From the IMG/VR virus record IMGVR_UViG_3300032046_000149, positions 1-29,901 of that record: a stretch of DNA of 29,901 nt. The stretch is one strand, 5' to 3'. Below, piece after piece: positions 168 through 9,458 of this stretch (the stretch's first letter is position 1; each line of letters starts with the position of its first letter). Origin of the DNA: a virus. A program made the translations under genes and the position numbers. The notes under the pieces are model-generated. The model was not told the DNA's origin. It saw only the letters and a program-made list of their open reading frames with translations, and did not search any database.

Positions 168-299
168 ATGCAAGACCTTTGGGAGCGAAGACAGATTATT
201 AACAAACCCCCGTTAAAACTTATGGCTTCGGCTGTAAGTTTTTTTATGCTCCCAAAGGCAACGGGGGTTTTAAATTTAATGGAGGGCTACAATGCCTAA
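168..299 (+). CDS. Short frame (43 aa) overlapping a structured RNA
   Basis: This frame starts at an ATG 6 bases after a strong AAGGAG (156-161) and ends 8 bases into the next gene (TAA at 297-299). It would encode MQDLWERRQIINKPPL..., without recognisable similarity. Almost all of it is covered by the pseudoknot described at 176-270, so the base sequence is probably constrained by RNA folding rather than by the protein. It could be a leader peptide whose translation opens or closes the RNA structure upstream of the repeat-protein gene. An alternative is that it is not translated at all. Confidence 0.3.
   Translation: MQDLWERRQIINKPPLKLMASAVSFFMLPKATGVLNLMEGYNA
176..270 (+). ncRNA. Pseudoknotted RNA element with a UUCG hairpin
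   Basis: Three perfect or wobble-only helices can be read directly. Helix S1 pairs CCTTTGGGAGC (176-186) with GCTCCCAAAGG (248-258), 11 bp. Helix S2 pairs AAACCCCCGTT (204-214) with AACGGGGGTTT (260-270), 11 bp. A 12-bp hairpin (215-226 with 231-242, two G-U pairs) is capped by the stable C(UUCG)G tetraloop and continues S2 without a gap on the 5' strand. The order S1, S2, hairpin, S1', S2' makes S1 and S2 cross, so this is a pseudoknot. S1' and S2' are one base apart. It ends 10 bases before the GGAGGG of the 292 gene, so control of that gene is a reasonable inference. I could not match it to a known riboswitch or ribozyme. Confidence 0.7.
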
Positions 300-2995: not shown

Positions 2996-3343
2996 ATGCA
3001 ATGTCCTATTTGTGCAGGACCGATGTGGGACAACACGGTGGATAAGAAGAATCCCAAGGGACCAGATTACAAATGCAAGAATAAGGAGTGCGGTCACGCG
3101 GTCTGGCTGGATAATAAGAAACCAACAATATTCAAACCTCCAAAACCCGAACCGATCGCAAGCAATAATAGCCAACCAGTCGGTTCAAGGGCGATGGTAA
3201 TGGCTTATGCTAAGGATTTAATTGTGGCACAGATAACGGCAGGAACAGGACCACAACAACCTTTAAAGTCAATAATTTTTACTTTCAGGTCTTTGTGGCA
3301 GGAAGTAGAAAGACCAGGAAGCGTAGTTTTTAAGGAAGAGTAA
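2996..3343 (+). CDS. Zinc-ribbon protein next to the nuclease
   Basis: The ATG at 2996 follows AAGGAGG (2984-2990). The 115-aa product opens with a zinc ribbon: CPIC at residues 3-6 and C27-x4-C32, with intervening text (MWDNTVDKKNPKGPDYKC) like the short ribbons of phage DNA-binding proteins. A proline-rich linker (PPKPEP) leads to a helical C-terminal domain (AMVMAYAKDLIVAQI..., ending FRSLWQEVERPGSVVF). I recall this ribbon-plus-helical layout in phage proteins beside RecB-like nucleases or annealing proteins, but cannot assign a biochemical role. The last three bases overlap the structured RNA at 3341-3436. Confidence 0.75.
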   Translation: MQCPICAGPMWDNTVDKKNPKGPDYKCKNKECGHAVWLDNKKPTIFKPPKPEPIASNNSQPVGSRAMVMAYAKDLIVAQITAGTGPQQPLKSIIFTFRSLWQEVERPGSVVFKEE

Positions 3344-3436
3344 TTTATGGGGAGGCGTATCCGTCCAGCATAAATTAACCCTTTGGGCGAAAGGGCGTTG
3401 ATACTGCCTCCCCTAAAATCCCCGCCAGTCACGGAT
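3341..3436 (+). promoter_or_regulatory. Structured RNA leader with alternative helices
   Basis: The 98-base gap before the next gene is filled by complementary segments. The main stem pairs GGGGAGGCGTATC (3349-3361) with GATACtGCCTCCCC (3400-3413), 13 bp with one bulged T. It encloses a 6-bp hairpin, CCCTTT-gggcg-AAAGGG. Two further perfect matches would compete with or cross the main stem: TAATTTATG (3341-3349) with CATAAATTA (3369-3377), 9 bp, and ATCCGT (3359-3364) with ACGGAT (3431-3436), 6 bp. The last strand lies just before the ATG at 3442, which lacks a good ribosome binding site. Mutually exclusive folds near a weak start suggest a translational switch; this is inference. Confidence 0.55.
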
Positions 3437-3441
3437 TAGAT

Positions 3442-3627
3442 ATGCAATTTGATACCGAAAAAATAACCGATGAGCGCATTCCCTACTTGGGAATAGTTTC
3501 TAATGACGGCGTTGTAGTTTCTTGCGTCCGGATAAAGGAGTGCGTGCCGAGTTGTATAAGGTGGAAGAAGTGTAGTGTAAAGGAGGTAAAAAATGACATT
3601 CCTAATCTACCTGATTTTAGTTTATAG
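3442..3627 (+). CDS. Cysteine-containing hypothetical protein (61 aa)
   Basis: This frame begins at the ATG of GATATGCAATTT and ends at 3627. The product has four cysteines in the centre (SCVRIKECVPSC...KKC), which could form a small metal site or disulphides. No family is recognised. The start has no clear Shine-Dalgarno sequence and is preceded by ACGGAT, one strand of the structured leader. The gene's 3' part contains the strong AAGGAGG of the next small gene, which overlaps it by 35 bases. Confidence 0.5.
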   Translation: MQFDTEKITDERIPYLGIVSNDGVVVSCVRIKECVPSCIRWKKCSVKEVKNDIPNLPDFSL

Positions 3628-3670
3628 TTTGTTGATATGGCTGGAGCGGAGGGCGGTAAATGATGAGTGA
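3593..3670 (+). CDS. Tiny single-helix membrane protein (25 aa)
   Basis: A strong AAGGAGG (3580-3586) precedes this ATG by 6 bases, better than the signal of the overlapping 3442 gene. The product is one hydrophobic helix, MTFLIYLILVYSLLIWLERR, with a charged C-terminal end. It overlaps the next gene's start by 11 bases. The role is unknown; it could anchor or modulate a membrane process. Ribosome binding site quality is the main support. Confidence 0.55.
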   Translation: MTFLIYLILVYSLLIWLERRAVNDE

Positions 3671-3905
3671 TTTATTTCAAAATAAGTCCCAGCAGTTATT
3701 GACTTGGTGCCGTCAGAGGCGGGTTTTTAGCAAGGCCGATTTAATGCGTTACGGATTGGACAATTGGTATCTAAGGTGCGATAGGACGGTTAGGTCTTGG
3801 GTGCAGGCGGGCTTGGTGAGGCGGCTGAATGATTGGGAGAGGAAGCAGGGAGGATTACGAGGCAGAATGGCATATTATTGTTATATAGAAAAAAGGGATG
3901 CATAA
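3660..3905 (+). CDS. Winged-helix DNA-binding protein (81 aa)
   Basis: ATGATG at 3660 follows GGAGGG (3648-3653), and either ATG could serve. The sequence QQLLTWCRQRRVFSKADLMR, then DRTVRSWVQAGLVRRLND, and finally GLRGRMAYYCY reads as helix-turn-helix plus a beta wing: strand-helix-helix, a recognition-like helix rich in Arg, then a two-strand hairpin. Small winged-helix proteins of this kind occur in phage early regions as repressors, activators or replication accessory proteins. It lies directly before the noncoding structured region and the replication initiator, so regulation of either is plausible but not shown. Confidence 0.65.
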   Translation: MMSDLFQNKSQQLLTWCRQRRVFSKADLMRYGLDNWYLRCDRTVRSWVQAGLVRRLNDWERKQGGLRGRMAYYCYIEKRDA

Positions 3906-3910
3906 TTGCA

Positions 3911-4023
3911 TAACTGGAAACCGACAAGGTTACTATTCCTTGACTTCCTCCCACCACTCCACAAGGAGTTACGGAAGGAAATTAGAACAGTTGCGGTTAG
4001 GCTTATTCGGTTTTGCGAACCGC
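3911..4023 (+). other. Predicted multi-hairpin RNA or structured DNA
   Basis: This stretch has no gene but contains compatible perfect 5-6 bp helices. AACTG (3912-3916) with CAGTT (3988-3992) could close a multiloop holding CAAGG/CCTTG (3925-3929/3938-3942) and CTTCC/GGAAG (3944-3948/3973-3977), the latter enclosing ACTCC-acaa-GGAGT (3956-3969). It is followed by GCGGTT/AACCGC (3993-3998/4018-4023). AACCG (3919-3923) can alternatively pair with CGGTT (3994-3998), crossing the closing stem. Each helix is short, so chance pairing is possible. The text CCCCTAAAAT after the last stem also follows the main stem at 3413. Confidence 0.35.
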
Positions 4024-4036
4024 CCCTAAAATTATC

Positions 4037-4065
4037 TTGACAAATGAAGAATAGTGATTTAATAT
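4037..4065 (+). promoter_or_regulatory. Strong sigma70-type promoter
   Basis: The -35 box TTGACA (4037-4042) is a perfect consensus. It is separated by 17 bases from TAATAT (4060-4065), which matches TATAAT at 4 of 6 positions including the key first, second and last bases. Transcription would start near 4072, six bases before the first helix strand of the RNA below. It is the best promoter I see in the window and lies in a gene-free gap. Confidence 0.7.
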
Positions 4066-4071
4066 GGGATG

Positions 4072-4201
4072 AAGAAAGGAAGCCCAAATGCAACAGAGTT
4101 TTTTATCAACCCCAAAAGAAAATAAGGTGATAGAGAAAAGGAGTTTCCTACCGACTCTGTTGGCAGGGCTTCCGACTCCCGAGTATCTATCGCCTTTTTT
4201 T
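4072..4201 (+). ncRNA. Candidate phage small RNA with pseudoknot and terminator
   Basis: From the inferred start at about 4072 the RNA would be ~130 nt, ending in seven U residues (4195-4201). Helix S1 pairs GGAAGCCC (4078-4085) with GGGCTTCC (4166-4173) and continues as CAACAGAGT (4091-4099) with ACTCTGTTG (4154-4162). Helix S2 pairs AAGGTGATAGA (4124-4134) with TCTATCGCCTT (4186-4196), 11 bp with one G-U, extended inward by GGAGT/ACTCC (4140-4144/4175-4179). S1 and S2 cross, so the fold is a pseudoknot. S1' and S2' are separated by one base (G4174). S2' plus the U-run acts as the terminator. The role is unknown; no known family is recognised. Confidence 0.65.
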
Positions 4202-4228
4202 GTAAGGTTTTTATTTATGAATTCCTGA
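4088..4228 (+). CDS. Short frame (46 aa) inside the small RNA
   Basis: ATG CAA CAG... follows AAAGGA at a workable spacing and stays open for 46 codons, past the U-run to a TGA at 4226-4228. It would encode MQQSFLSTPKENK..., ending in a hydrophobic FFVRFLFMNS. The overlap with long complementary strands and a terminator makes coding doubtful. It may be a chance frame, or the locus may be a leader-peptide or dual-function RNA. Confidence 0.2.
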   Translation: MQQSFLSTPKENKVIEKRSFLPTLLAGLPTPEYLSPFFVRFLFMNS

Positions 4229-4240
4229 AATGAGATAAAA

Positions 4241-4879
4241 ATGGACTATATCAGTATAAAAAACCTTGATAAGTTTCAACCACATTATAAAGATGGCAGA
4301 GTAATTCTTTGGATACGTTGGGATATAGAAGCAATAGGGGACTATAAGATTGCCAAACTTACCTCGAGCCAAAGATGGTTGTTTATAGGGCTTATTTGCT
4401 TGGCCTGTAAGCACCTTAACCAGATTCCAATGGATGAACAGTGGATAAGTGAGGAGATTAGATACCCCCAAAAATCTATCCTTAATGATTTAAAGAAGTT
4501 ACAGGAATTAGAATTGATAGTAACAAATTGCACCAAATTGGTGCAAAAAGACACTACGATACATACGATACATACGATACAAACAGACAATACATATATC
4601 GTGGAGTTCTTTAATTATTTCCTCTTAAAAACCAAAAAAGTCTTTAAACTCACCCTTACCAACCGCAATTTAATCCGCCAACGCCTTAATGATGGCTTTA
4701 CTATTGAGCAGATGGAACAGGCAGTAGATAACTTTATGCAGGATGATTGGCCAGACCGGCAGAAACATCTTGATCTTATCTATTGCATCGGTATCCGGAA
4801 CAAGATAGATAATCTTGAGAAATGGCTTAATTATAAACCTAAAGATAAAACCACCCTTATTTTTAAGAAGGAGGTTTAA
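4241..4879 (+). CDS. DnaD-like phage replication initiator
   Basis: The product is 212 aa. The N-terminal half (about 20-95) reads as a winged helix typical of phage replisome organisers: an SSQRWLFIGLICLACKH helix, then EEIRYPQKSILNDLKKLQELELI. The C-terminal part (LTLTNRNLIRQRLNDGFT, then DLIYCIGIRNKIDNLEKWLNY) matches the conserved C-terminal domain of DnaD-like and phage replication proteins. Such proteins bind the origin and help load the host helicase. A weak TGAGAT lies before the ATG. The middle, between the domains, contains an inverted repeat and three 9-bp iterons encoding a TIHTIHTIQ linker. This fits initiators that carry their origin inside their own gene. Confidence 0.8.
   Translation: MDYISIKNLDKFQPHYKDGRVILWIRWDIEAIGDYKIAKLTSSQRWLFIGLICLACKHLNQIPMDEQWISEEIRYPQKSILNDLKKLQELELIVTNCTKLVQKDTTIHTIHTIQTDNTYIVEFFNYFLLKTKKVFKLTLTNRNLIRQRLNDGFTIEQMEQAVDNFMQDDWPDRQKHLDLIYCIGIRNKIDNLEKWLNYKPKDKTTLIFKKEV
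4528..4582 (+). other. Candidate replication origin: inverted repeat plus iterons
   Basis: A perfect inverted repeat TTGCACCAA-a-TTGGTGCAA occupies 4528-4546. Ten bases later come three head-to-tail 9-bp repeats: ACGATACAT (4556-4564), ACGATACAT (4565-4573) and ACGATACAA (4574-4582), followed by AT-rich sequence. Iterons in the interdomain part of an initiator gene are the arrangement of lambda O and many Gram-positive phage origins. The origin function here is inferred from position and repeats. Confidence 0.6.
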
Positions 4880-5519: not shown

Positions 5520-6200
5520 ATGAAAAAAATCACTCAAGAGGAATTTAATGCTTTTGAACGAGATGAAAATGGTATTTTATATCTTCCTTCAGCCGATTAT
5601 TCTTTAATAAAAAAATTCAATGAGCAGTGCTCTTTCGGTAAGCAGTGCTCTTTCGGTGAGCAGTGCTCTTTCGGTGAGCAGTGCTCTTTCGGTGAGCGGT
5701 GCTCTTTCGGTGAGTGGTGCTCTTTCGGTGAGCAGTGCTCTTTCGGTGAGCAGTGCTCTTTCGGTGAGTGGTGCTCTTTCGGTAAGCAGTGCTTTTTCGG
5801 TAAGCAGTGCTCTTTCGGTGAGCGGTGCTCTTTCGGTGAGTGGTGCTCTTTCGGTGAGCAGTGCTCTTTCGGTGAGTGGTGCTCTTTCGGTAAGTGGTGC
5901 TCTTTCGGTGAGCGGTGCTCTTTCGGTGAGCGGTGCTCTTTCGGTGAGCGGTGCTCTTTCGGTGGGGGGTGTAAAGCAATTTGTCCTTCTTGGTCTTTTG
6001 TATATGAGCCACCCCTTGAAACAATGGGAAAAATTTATCCCCCTCTCGCAACTCGTTCTTATTGGGAGGAACGGTTAAATATTAAACTTGCCCCCTGTTA
6101 TGACGAGATAGCCCAGCAGATTAAACCCTTGTTGCCTGAAATATTAAAACGCAAGGATTTGACAAAATGTGAACGCAGGATATTGGAGAGTTGGTTATGA
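5520..6200 (+). CDS. Cys-hexapeptide repeat protein (226 aa)
   Basis: The start is an ATG after AAAGGAGAG. Residues 1-36 form a conserved-looking head (KKITQEEFNAFERDENGILY). Residues 37-150 are 19 perfect-length hexapeptides of consensus CSFGE[Q/R/W]. The tail (residues 151-226) includes WSFVYEPPL, YWEERLNIKL and ILESWL. In the register F-G-E-x-C-S the repeat approximates the hexapeptide rule ([LIV]-[GAED]-x-x-[STAV]-x) of left-handed beta-helices; 19 units would give about six turns. That would place Phe inside and align Cys residues in a ladder. This structure is inferred. No signal peptide is present, so the cysteines would be cytoplasmic and probably reduced or metal-bound. Confidence 0.75.
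   Translation: MKKITQEEFNAFERDENGILYLPSADYSLIKKFNEQCSFGKQCSFGEQCSFGEQCSFGERCSFGEWCSFGEQCSFGEQCSFGEWCSFGKQCFFGKQCSFGERCSFGEWCSFGEQCSFGEWCSFGKWCSFGERCSFGERCSFGERCSFGGGCKAICPSWSFVYEPPLETMGKIYPPLATRSYWEERLNIKLAPCYDEIAQQIKPLLPEILKRKDLTKCERRILESWL
5628..5969 (+). repeat. In-frame tandem array, 19 x 18 bp
   Basis: Nineteen units of TGC TCT TTC GGT GAG NNN run without indels. The last codon is only CAG, CGG or TGG (GGG in the final unit), and the fifth codon is GAG or AAG (GGG in the final unit). One unit has TTT in place of TCT. The codon thus toggles C/T and A/G at two positions. The fourth combination, TAG, would be a stop and is absent. Confidence 0.97.
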
Positions 6201-6219
6201 GGGATTGCTGGAGGTGTTT

Positions 6220-6279
6220 ATGGGAATGAAAAAAGACTTAAAAAATACAATAATAGACCAAGCCCTAAGCAATAAATAA
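6220..6279 (+). CDS. Possible 19-aa peptide
   Basis: ATG follows GGAGG (6210-6214) at good spacing and encodes MGMKKDLKNTIIDQALSNK. This is the only supported frame in the 118-base gap between the repeat gene and the 6319 gene. Evidence is limited to the ribosome binding site; no similarity is recognised. Confidence 0.25.
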   Translation: MGMKKDLKNTIIDQALSNK

Positions 6280-7711: not shown

Positions 7712-8089
7712 ATGCCAAGACACTTACCTCCAATAGAACATAGGTTTCCAGCAAATAGACCTCATGCTCCTAATGCTGGAAATCACGGTCCCTACCTTAT
7801 GCCACTTCTTAAGCGGTTGCTTGAAAAGAAAATAAACTTTGAAGACCCAGAGACCAAGAAGATAATTCAGGGCAAAGTTAAACACGCTATTCTTTGGCGT
7901 TATATCCTCAATGCTGCACACGGAGAGAACCAGGCGATAGAGGGTATAATTGACCGGATTGACGGTAAGGTGGCGCAGAAATTAATTGGCGAAGGTTTTG
8001 CGGCTGGCGAATCAAAAATTATTTTAATTGCTCCTTCTTTCAAAACAAAAAAGACCGATGCAAGTAGAATTAACACCATCGCAATATGA
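7712..8089 (+). CDS. Putative terminase small subunit (DUF5681-like)
   Basis: The 125-aa product begins with a basic, glycine/proline/asparagine-rich arm (HRFPANRPHAPNAGNHGPYL), as in DUF5681 proteins. It is followed by helices and AIEGIIDRIDGKVAQKLIGE, a motif I associate with the same family found just before the large terminase. It sits directly upstream of, and overlaps by 32 bases, the terminase large subunit gene. Recognition of the packaging site is therefore the likely job. The ribosome binding site is weak, and DNA binding is inferred only. Confidence 0.6.
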   Translation: MPRHLPPIEHRFPANRPHAPNAGNHGPYLMPLLKRLLEKKINFEDPETKKIIQGKVKHAILWRYILNAAHGENQAIEGIIDRIDGKVAQKLIGEGFAAGESKIILIAPSFKTKKTDASRINTIAI

Positions 8090-9458
8090 TTTTTTGTATT
8101 CAAAAGCTCGTCATCCTGCTTTTGTTGGAGGATGGAATGTTGGTAAGACATTAGTCGCAATCAGCCGAGCAATCGTTTACTCCAAGGGTATACCAAATAA
8201 CCTCGGAGTAATTTTTAGAAAAACTGCACGTTCACTTCACGACTCTACTCTTAGAGATTTTGAAACCTACACCAACCTTAAAGTAGACGCCAATCGCAAT
8301 TACGCTTACCCAAACAAATCAGTAATTATGTTTCGCCATCTTGACGAGATAACTTCTATCAATCAACAGAACATTAATCTTGGCTGGTATTATATCGAGC
8401 AAGGTGATGAACTTGAGTCAGACAGAGAATTCTTTATGTTGTTTGGAAGATTAAGACGAGAAGGAGTGCCGACTGAGGAATTTATTAGGTTGGGACTACC
8501 ATTGCGCTCAGGTTGGGTCATTGCTAATGCTGGCGACCATTGGATGAAACCTTTGTGGAAGGAGGGCAAACTCGAGGCAAGCATTACTGACGAAATACGC
8601 AAAGACTGTGCTTTATTTTCTCAATTAATAGAATCTGAAACCTTTTCTGAGGAGAATAAAAAATTTGTTAAAGCAGACTTCATAGCTTCAATGAAGGTGT
8701 TGGAACAAATTAATCCTACACTGTATCGACAATTTGTAAAGAATGATTGGTCAGTGTCTGTCCGCAATATTATATTTACTTCCGAACTTATCAATCATAT
8801 GTTCAATAGATATGGATTAATTTCACAACACTCCAAGAGCGCGGGTGTCGCAGTTGACCCAGCTGGTGAAGGAGTGGACGATAATGTTTTTATGTCTGGG
8901 AGAGGTGGAGACCCATTAGACGTTTATACTAAAACTATTATGGCTCCTTCCTCTAAAGCCATTCACGCAGTCGAGATGTGTAAGCAAATAGACGGAGATT
9001 TCATTATTGTAGATTGTGATGGATTAGGAATAGAAACTTATCAAGAGCTCAAAAAATTAAATAAAGATTATTTGCAAGGCATAGAGATTATAAAGTTTCA
9101 CGGCTCTGCTCCAAGTGAGATGAAAGAGGGAGATAGGCTCATCTATCTTAATTTGCGGACGGAAGCAGCCTTCGTAGCGCAAAAGAGAGGATGGAGTGGT
9201 AGGGCAGGAATTAATCCCAAAGACACAATATTGCTCGAAGAATTAAAGGCAGACGAATATGAAACTCAAAGAGGCTACTTAAAGATTATTCCCAAATTAG
9301 AAATAAAAGAGAGGCTTGGTCGTTCTCCTGGTCGTGCCGATTGCTGGAAAATGCTTCAATGGGCATTTGAGAAGAATATAAAAAGAAAAAGTGTTTATCC
9401 AAACACAGCATTATCCAATTTGCCTCGTGAGGTTGAAGCTGAGGTAGTATCGATTTAG
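8058..9458 (+). CDS. terL: Terminase large subunit (packaging ATPase-nuclease)
   Basis: This enzyme pumps DNA into the prohead with ATP and cuts the concatemer. The ATPase has Walker A GGWNVGKT (24-31) and a Walker B-type WYYIEQGDE (110-118). The C-terminal RNase H-like nuclease shows GVAVDPAGEGVDDNVF (first Asp), then IIVDCDGLG (second acidic cluster), and GRADCWKMLQWAF (last Asp) near the end. The length, 466 aa, is normal. The ATG at 8058 gives MQVELTPSQYDFLYS, the usual N-terminal Q-motif region. A TTG at 8028 would add 10 residues not typical of the family. The gene overlaps the upstream small-subunit candidate. Confidence 0.95.
   Translation: MQVELTPSQYDFLYSKARHPAFVGGWNVGKTLVAISRAIVYSKGIPNNLGVIFRKTARSLHDSTLRDFETYTNLKVDANRNYAYPNKSVIMFRHLDEITSINQQNINLGWYYIEQGDELESDREFFMLFGRLRREGVPTEEFIRLGLPLRSGWVIANAGDHWMKPLWKEGKLEASITDEIRKDCALFSQLIESETFSEENKKFVKADFIASMKVLEQINPTLYRQFVKNDWSVSVRNIIFTSELINHMFNRYGLISQHSKSAGVAVDPAGEGVDDNVFMSGRGGDPLDVYTKTIMAPSSKAIHAVEMCKQIDGDFIIVDCDGLGIETYQELKKLNKDYLQGIEIIKFHGSAPSEMKEGDRLIYLNLRTEAAFVAQKRGWSGRAGINPKDTILLEELKADEYETQRGYLKIIPKLEIKERLGRSPGRADCWKMLQWAFEKNIKRKSVYPNTALSNLPREVEAEVVSI

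Follow-up and report, generated by a model that had tools for sequence, protein, structure and literature searches.

A promoter-linked pseudoknot ahead of a replication-initiator-type gene in a podovirus-like phage, with a layout that recurs in related phages

What is encoded at 4037-4203 of virus record IMGVR_UViG_3300032046_000149, where a promoter, a pseudoknot and a run of T follow one another between two genes: a stand-alone small RNA, as an earlier note proposed, or a leader that controls the next gene? The window analyzed here is the whole record of 29,901 bases, from a podovirus-like phage with genes for a head-tail connector, a tail tube and internal virion proteins. Short, nearly perfect repeats occur in two proteins, encoded at 5520-6200 and 292-1326: ‘CSFGE’ repeat units of 18 bp, and ‘SSQLAASGY’ repeats that follow a DUF7666 domain. 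A host search by terminase across 84,980 species genomes gave no match. The gene upstream of the locus had been labeled winged-helix but has no significant family match here. The downstream gene is called replication-initiator type from matches to PHROG replication initiation proteins and a weak match to Phg_2220_C below Pfam's cut-off. The matches of this downstream gene are to replication-initiator families only, with no ToxN/AbiQ-type nuclease among them. The gap between the two genes is free of plus-strand open reading frames of at least 60 amino acids; a 46-codon frame, already mentioned in the earlier note, runs through the structure. The features of the locus are:

3660-3905: upstream short gene, no significant family match
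4037-4065, plus strand: sigma-70-type promoter, TTGACA 4037-4042, 17 nt, TAATAT 4060-4065; 10 of 12 consensus positions
4075-4080 and 4088-4090, plus strand: Shine-Dalgarno match AAAGGA and ATG, overlapping the first strand of stem 1
4078-4173, plus strand: stem 1, made of P1 4078-4085/4166-4173 (8 bp) and P2 4091-4100/4153-4162 (10 bp)
4088-4228, plus strand: 46-codon open frame through the pseudoknot, candidate leader ORF
4124-4134/4186-4196, plus strand: stem 2 (P3), crossing helix of 11 bp with one G-U
4195-4201, plus strand: terminator-like T-run, seven T directly after and partly within the last strand of stem 2
4241-4879, plus strand: replication-initiator-type gene

The promoter, H-type pseudoknot and seven T at 4037-4203 are real and confirmed. 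The -35 box matches the consensus fully and the spacer is 17 nt, as the earlier note had it; the -10 box agrees at only four of six positions, so calling it good was generous. Transcription is predicted from the promoter to start at about 4072, and the first helix strand begins 12 nt after the -10 box, in line with the distance first given. Stem 1 has a small asymmetric internal loop between P1 and P2. From the end of stem 2 at 4196 to the initiator ATG there are 45 nt, and the final strand of this helix passes straight into the T-run, two of whose seven T lie inside P3. The putative RNA would have its 3′ end 39 nt short of the initiator-type gene, which has the same orientation. The locus has the G+C-rich helix and U-run of an intrinsic terminator, but its hairpin loop takes in the 3′ strand of stem 1 and is for that reason about 50 nt long. 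It also has the own promoter and terminator-like end of a small-RNA gene. Promoter, structure and U-run are in register, as first claimed, and other phages have the same arrangement as a unit.

P1 and P3 alone have a stacking energy of -39.5 kcal/mol. In 500 dinucleotide-preserving shuffles, every crossing pair of helices fell short of that score (best -37.1, median -22.3). The nested fold of the element has a z of -3.3. The approximate energy of the pseudoknot is -41.0, including a penalty of +9.6, versus -37.9 for the best nested fold. With the pseudoknot ahead by only about 3 kcal/mol, a nested competitor exists; a competing inner hairpin lies at 4099-4108/4128-4137, so the RNA may switch.

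The earlier note knew of no phage RNA family with this layout, and our searches agree. Rfam 15 gave no match at the gathering threshold over the window, none at E<=10 for 3900-4400, and none at E<=1 overlapping the structured elements of three related records described below (L014, L058 and L043). BLAST of 3900-4300 found no homologue in 50,697 phage records, the pooled sister elements had no match in phage records, and neither the element nor its sisters matched any of 72,556 plasmid records. The related phage records that we fetched likewise held no homologue of the window RNA. A DNA pattern for the P1/P2 strands had four matches in viral contigs, all unlike in context and judged to be chance, and the 3′ strand of P3, TCTATCGCCTTTTT, was found in L028 and L031 and rejected for want of partner strands. 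The closest phage at the terminase, L020 (76% amino acid identity), retains the upstream small gene (39%) and an adjoining noncoding element. Beyond 4035, two bases short of the -35 box, L020 is no longer similar to the window and has no pseudoknot there; the element is therefore a presence/absence module.

The adjoining noncoding element is itself structured. It extends from 3912 to about 4023-4032 (388-500 in L020), between the gene at 3660-3905 and the promoter, with 74% DNA identity to L020 and 27 consensus pairs, at seven of which both bases differ between the window and L020 in a compensatory way; it has no Rfam match. A strong inverted repeat, ATTTATGGGGAGGC/GCCTCCCCTAAAAT, occupies 3343-3419, and its 3′ end CCTCCCCTAAAAT resembles the end of the 3912-4032 element, CCGCCCCTAAAAT. 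Elsewhere in the record, the connector protein (encoded at 8028-9458) is 69-79% identical in L002-L005, phages that show no detectable match to the window's terminase, while L020, with the closest terminase, has a connector only 39% identical. On these comparisons, the connector/terminase boundary is one of mosaic exchange.

We searched all related records with a structural descriptor: a stem 1 near a promoter, a crossing stem 2, and a T-run in which stem 2 ends. A permissive, duplex-based form gave no excess over shuffles and was replaced by strict helices. At a score of <=-45 there were seven matches versus none in four shuffles, and with a promoter of at least 9/12 in register, a score of <=-35 and a T-run there were eight versus none in three shuffles; these counts are not a blind test, since the window and the first matches had already been seen when the descriptor was drawn up. 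The eight matches represent five independent loci in four phage records, the window included:

Window, 4037-4203, plus strand
L014 1049, the same locus as L015 1101
L014 5902, the same locus as L015 6131
L058 6968, the same locus as L059 4331, minus strand
L039 7822, minus strand

No promoter-plus-pseudoknot match was found in six control phages (T7, lambda, HTVC010P, phiV208, EauS-123 and phiMR11) or in bacterial contigs selected for strong promoters, about 1.1 Mb with both strands counted. Another 131 loci were selected for a strong promoter pattern; all promoter-plus-pseudoknot matches in them at a score of <=-35 were copies or relatives of elements already known, and none was in a bacterial contig. 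A replication-initiator-type gene lies just downstream in three of the five loci (the window, L014 5902 and L039). The element sequences are mutually unrelated and have the layout alone in common; L014 1049 and L059 share only the promoter and 5′ leader, and a phage carries two or three unlike copies. By approximate energy, the best nested fold is no more stable than the pseudoknot in any of the seven elements, though in L039 the pseudoknot is barely favored. Some U-runs are weak (UUUCAUA in L014 1049, CUUUUGG in L058, CUUUAUC in L039), and L014 1049 is followed about 75 nt further on by an apparent canonical terminator hairpin, with no gene directly after. That one design recurs with unrelated sequences suggests an on/off leader or small-RNA cassette of a kind not seen before.

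The same fold also occurs without a good promoter in L043 and once more in the window, inside a 43-codon ORF (168-299) that fills the gap before the gene at 292-1326:

176-270, plus strand: second pseudoknot of the window, stem 1 176-187/247-258, stem 2 204-214/260-270, then TTTT

A match in L105 was rejected (promoter 8/12, overlapping a 134-codon frame on the opposite strand), and gene-internal matches in L006, L057, L056 and L065, which overlap long frames and lack promoters, were not counted as members. In L058, positions 6157-6256 on the minus strand match the Rfam DUF3800-V RNA (41.9 bits, E 6e-8 on a short stretch) directly 3′ of an HNH-type gene and beside a pseudoknot cassette.

Orthologues of the sister element in L059 occur in L097 and in L058, whose copy is identical to that of L100, so that there are three distinct sequences. 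Stem 2 is 100% paired across them, with two double-sided compensatory and three one-sided changes, and stem 1 has a single broken cell. Sliding the partner strands destroys the pairing (98.7% to below 50%); a shuffle control was not significant (120/500) because the sequences are so few. These orthologues resemble one another from the promoter as far as the U-run and no further, and the gene that follows is a different one in each of L059, L058/L100 and L097. Such an arrangement suits an autonomous RNA no less than a leader.

The recurrent start codon bears on the same choice. In six of seven elements an ATG lies within -12 to +18 of stem 1 with a frame open across the knot, compared with 11-19% at random positions in the same records, and in five of seven this start codon has a Shine-Dalgarno match of at least 4 nt, compared with 3-6%. 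Stem 1 falls within the ribosome footprint of the ATG in all six ATG-bearing elements. Given this excess over random positions, the translation start at stem 1 is probably real. A start codon found repeatedly at the first strand of this stem suits a translated leader or attenuator no less than it suits a free small RNA. The peptide itself is probably not what is kept: products of different elements are unrelated to one another, pN/pS in the L059/L058/L097 set is 0.32, 0.45 and 1.11 with diverging C-termini, and L014 and L015 differ in frame through a 1-nt indel in stem 2. The 46-residue product of 4088-4228 has no PHROG, Pfam or tblastn match. The value of 0.32 for L058/L059 would allow weak coding constraint; across that orthologous set the helices are maintained, with no consistent coding signal in the reading frame.

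We tentatively favor, at somewhat less than even confidence, a mobile promoter-leader cassette whose pseudoknot would hide a translation start and act, ahead of phage genes, as a terminator that responds to translation; we infer transcription start, termination, translation and switching alike. Transcription would begin near 4072, and a ribosome could initiate at the ATG at 4088 within stem 1 and read a short leader frame, with a peptide whose sequence probably matters little. With no ribosome loaded, stem 1 would fold and hide the start site, and its loop would pair with the emerging 3′ strand to form stem 2 as polymerase reaches the U-run. The completed pseudoknot would end transcription and release an RNA of about 130 nt before the initiator-type gene, while translation, or a factor bound to the loop, would hold the strands apart and permit read-through into that gene. 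Since stem 1 overlaps the footprint of the ATG and stem 2 closes only as the U-run is made, such a terminator is the simplest way to give every recurrent part a role in one mechanism.

The chief rival, somewhat less probable in our judgment but of substantial weight, is a small RNA that acts in trans as an autonomous unit, transcribed from its own promoter and locked at the 3′ end by the pseudoknot; the leader frame and the downstream gene would be incidental to it, or it would have a dual function. The modular boundaries suit it equally, both the orthologous block that stops at the U-run before three different genes and the end of L020 similarity at 4035 with the element absent beyond, as do the canonical terminator rather than a gene after L014 1049 and the unlike copies within a phage. 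It leaves unexplained the recurrent Shine-Dalgarno match and ATG at stem 1 and three independent placements directly before replication-initiator-type genes. The stand-alone RNA of the earlier note thus survives as a conserved promoter-to-U-run unit in the sister orthologues, but its independence is put in question by the same-strand gene 39 nt on and by the recurrent start signals. That these signals instead mark a 46-codon protein gene, strongly structured by chance, is improbable: the window's second element does sit in an ORF fitted between two genes like an operon gene, and the L058/L059 pN/pS is low, but the peptides are unrelated, the window product is without database matches, pN/pS rises to 1.11 with diverging ends, and the stem 2 indel changes the frame.

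It seems still less probable that the RNA is a decoy, or resembles an antitoxin, and shields the phage from a host system by mimicking a host RNA. Compact H-type pseudoknots in several unlike copies with their own promoters would suit this, and there is a precedent in phage PhiTE, which mimics the ToxI pseudoknot (PMC3475682); the elements lack tandem repeats, however, their helices are far longer than ToxI-type units, and the next gene in the window is initiator-like, not a nuclease. Least probable, and very much so, is an ordinary gap with complementary segments. The window element is a single sequence without a homologue, and the descriptor followed its discovery, but the shuffle result of 0/500, eight matches versus none and the paired changes in the sister orthologues speak against chance, which the recurrence of the layout already largely refutes. 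Whether the elements form a structure-defined class of phage RNA cassettes, movable and translation-sensing, with a start codon in stem 1, stem 2 as terminator helix, and an own sequence for each of two or three copies per phage, is a broader proposal that we regard as doubtful.

If the cassette reading is true, one pseudoknot would act as both translation-start mask and terminator to control expression of the replication initiator in these phages, a terminator made by a pseudoknot in place of a hairpin and sensing translation of a disposable leader frame. Because its members share layout and not letters, sequence-based RNA searches cannot find the class. It could serve as a compact, orthogonal design for switches that sense translation, and would give a testable way into replication timing in uncultured phages.

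In its proposed working, the window element is like leaders and attenuators of known kinds and is a member of none that was tested. The pseudoknot of IncI-type plasmids lies near the initiator start site and activates initiator translation, under the control of an antisense RNA. IncI-alpha, IncB and IncL/M plasmids have a repY leader peptide, a pseudoknot and repZ/repA (Asano and Mizobuchi 1998; Athanasopoulos 1999; both as cited in PMC10724649), and they share with the window element a short leader ORF and an RNA pseudoknot directly before a replication initiator gene, here the 46-codon ORF with its Shine-Dalgarno match and the gene at 4241. In contrast, the window pseudoknot encloses the leader start and ends at the U-run, and no pseudoknot partner lies just before the initiator ribosome site in the window. 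Antisense-RNA control was set aside for the elements at large, which have no antisense promoter in common; the window alone has one weak promoter-like site (9/12) on the antisense strand, and the other elements have none. The pT181-type attenuators of phages and plasmids, driven by countertranscripts (as cited in PMC10724649), terminate prematurely ahead of a replication initiator gene, as is proposed here, but need an antisense RNA. Type III toxin-antitoxin RNAs (ToxI/CptI; PMC5086642) share a promoter, a pseudoknotted RNA and a terminator-like end followed by a gene, but our elements have helices of 8-21 bp and neither tandem repeats nor a ToxN-like gene, and 3300-4300 of the window holds a single element and no antitoxin repeat array. 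The SAM-II leaders of Sinorhizobium metA/metZ have a conserved ligand pocket and a separate terminator hairpin, unlike our elements, which have no common sequence and in which the crossing helix itself adjoins the U-run. In both, an H-type pseudoknot lies at or near the start codon; premature termination releases small RNAs of about 110 nt from the SAM-II leaders (PMC9373788) and is proposed to release a small RNA here.
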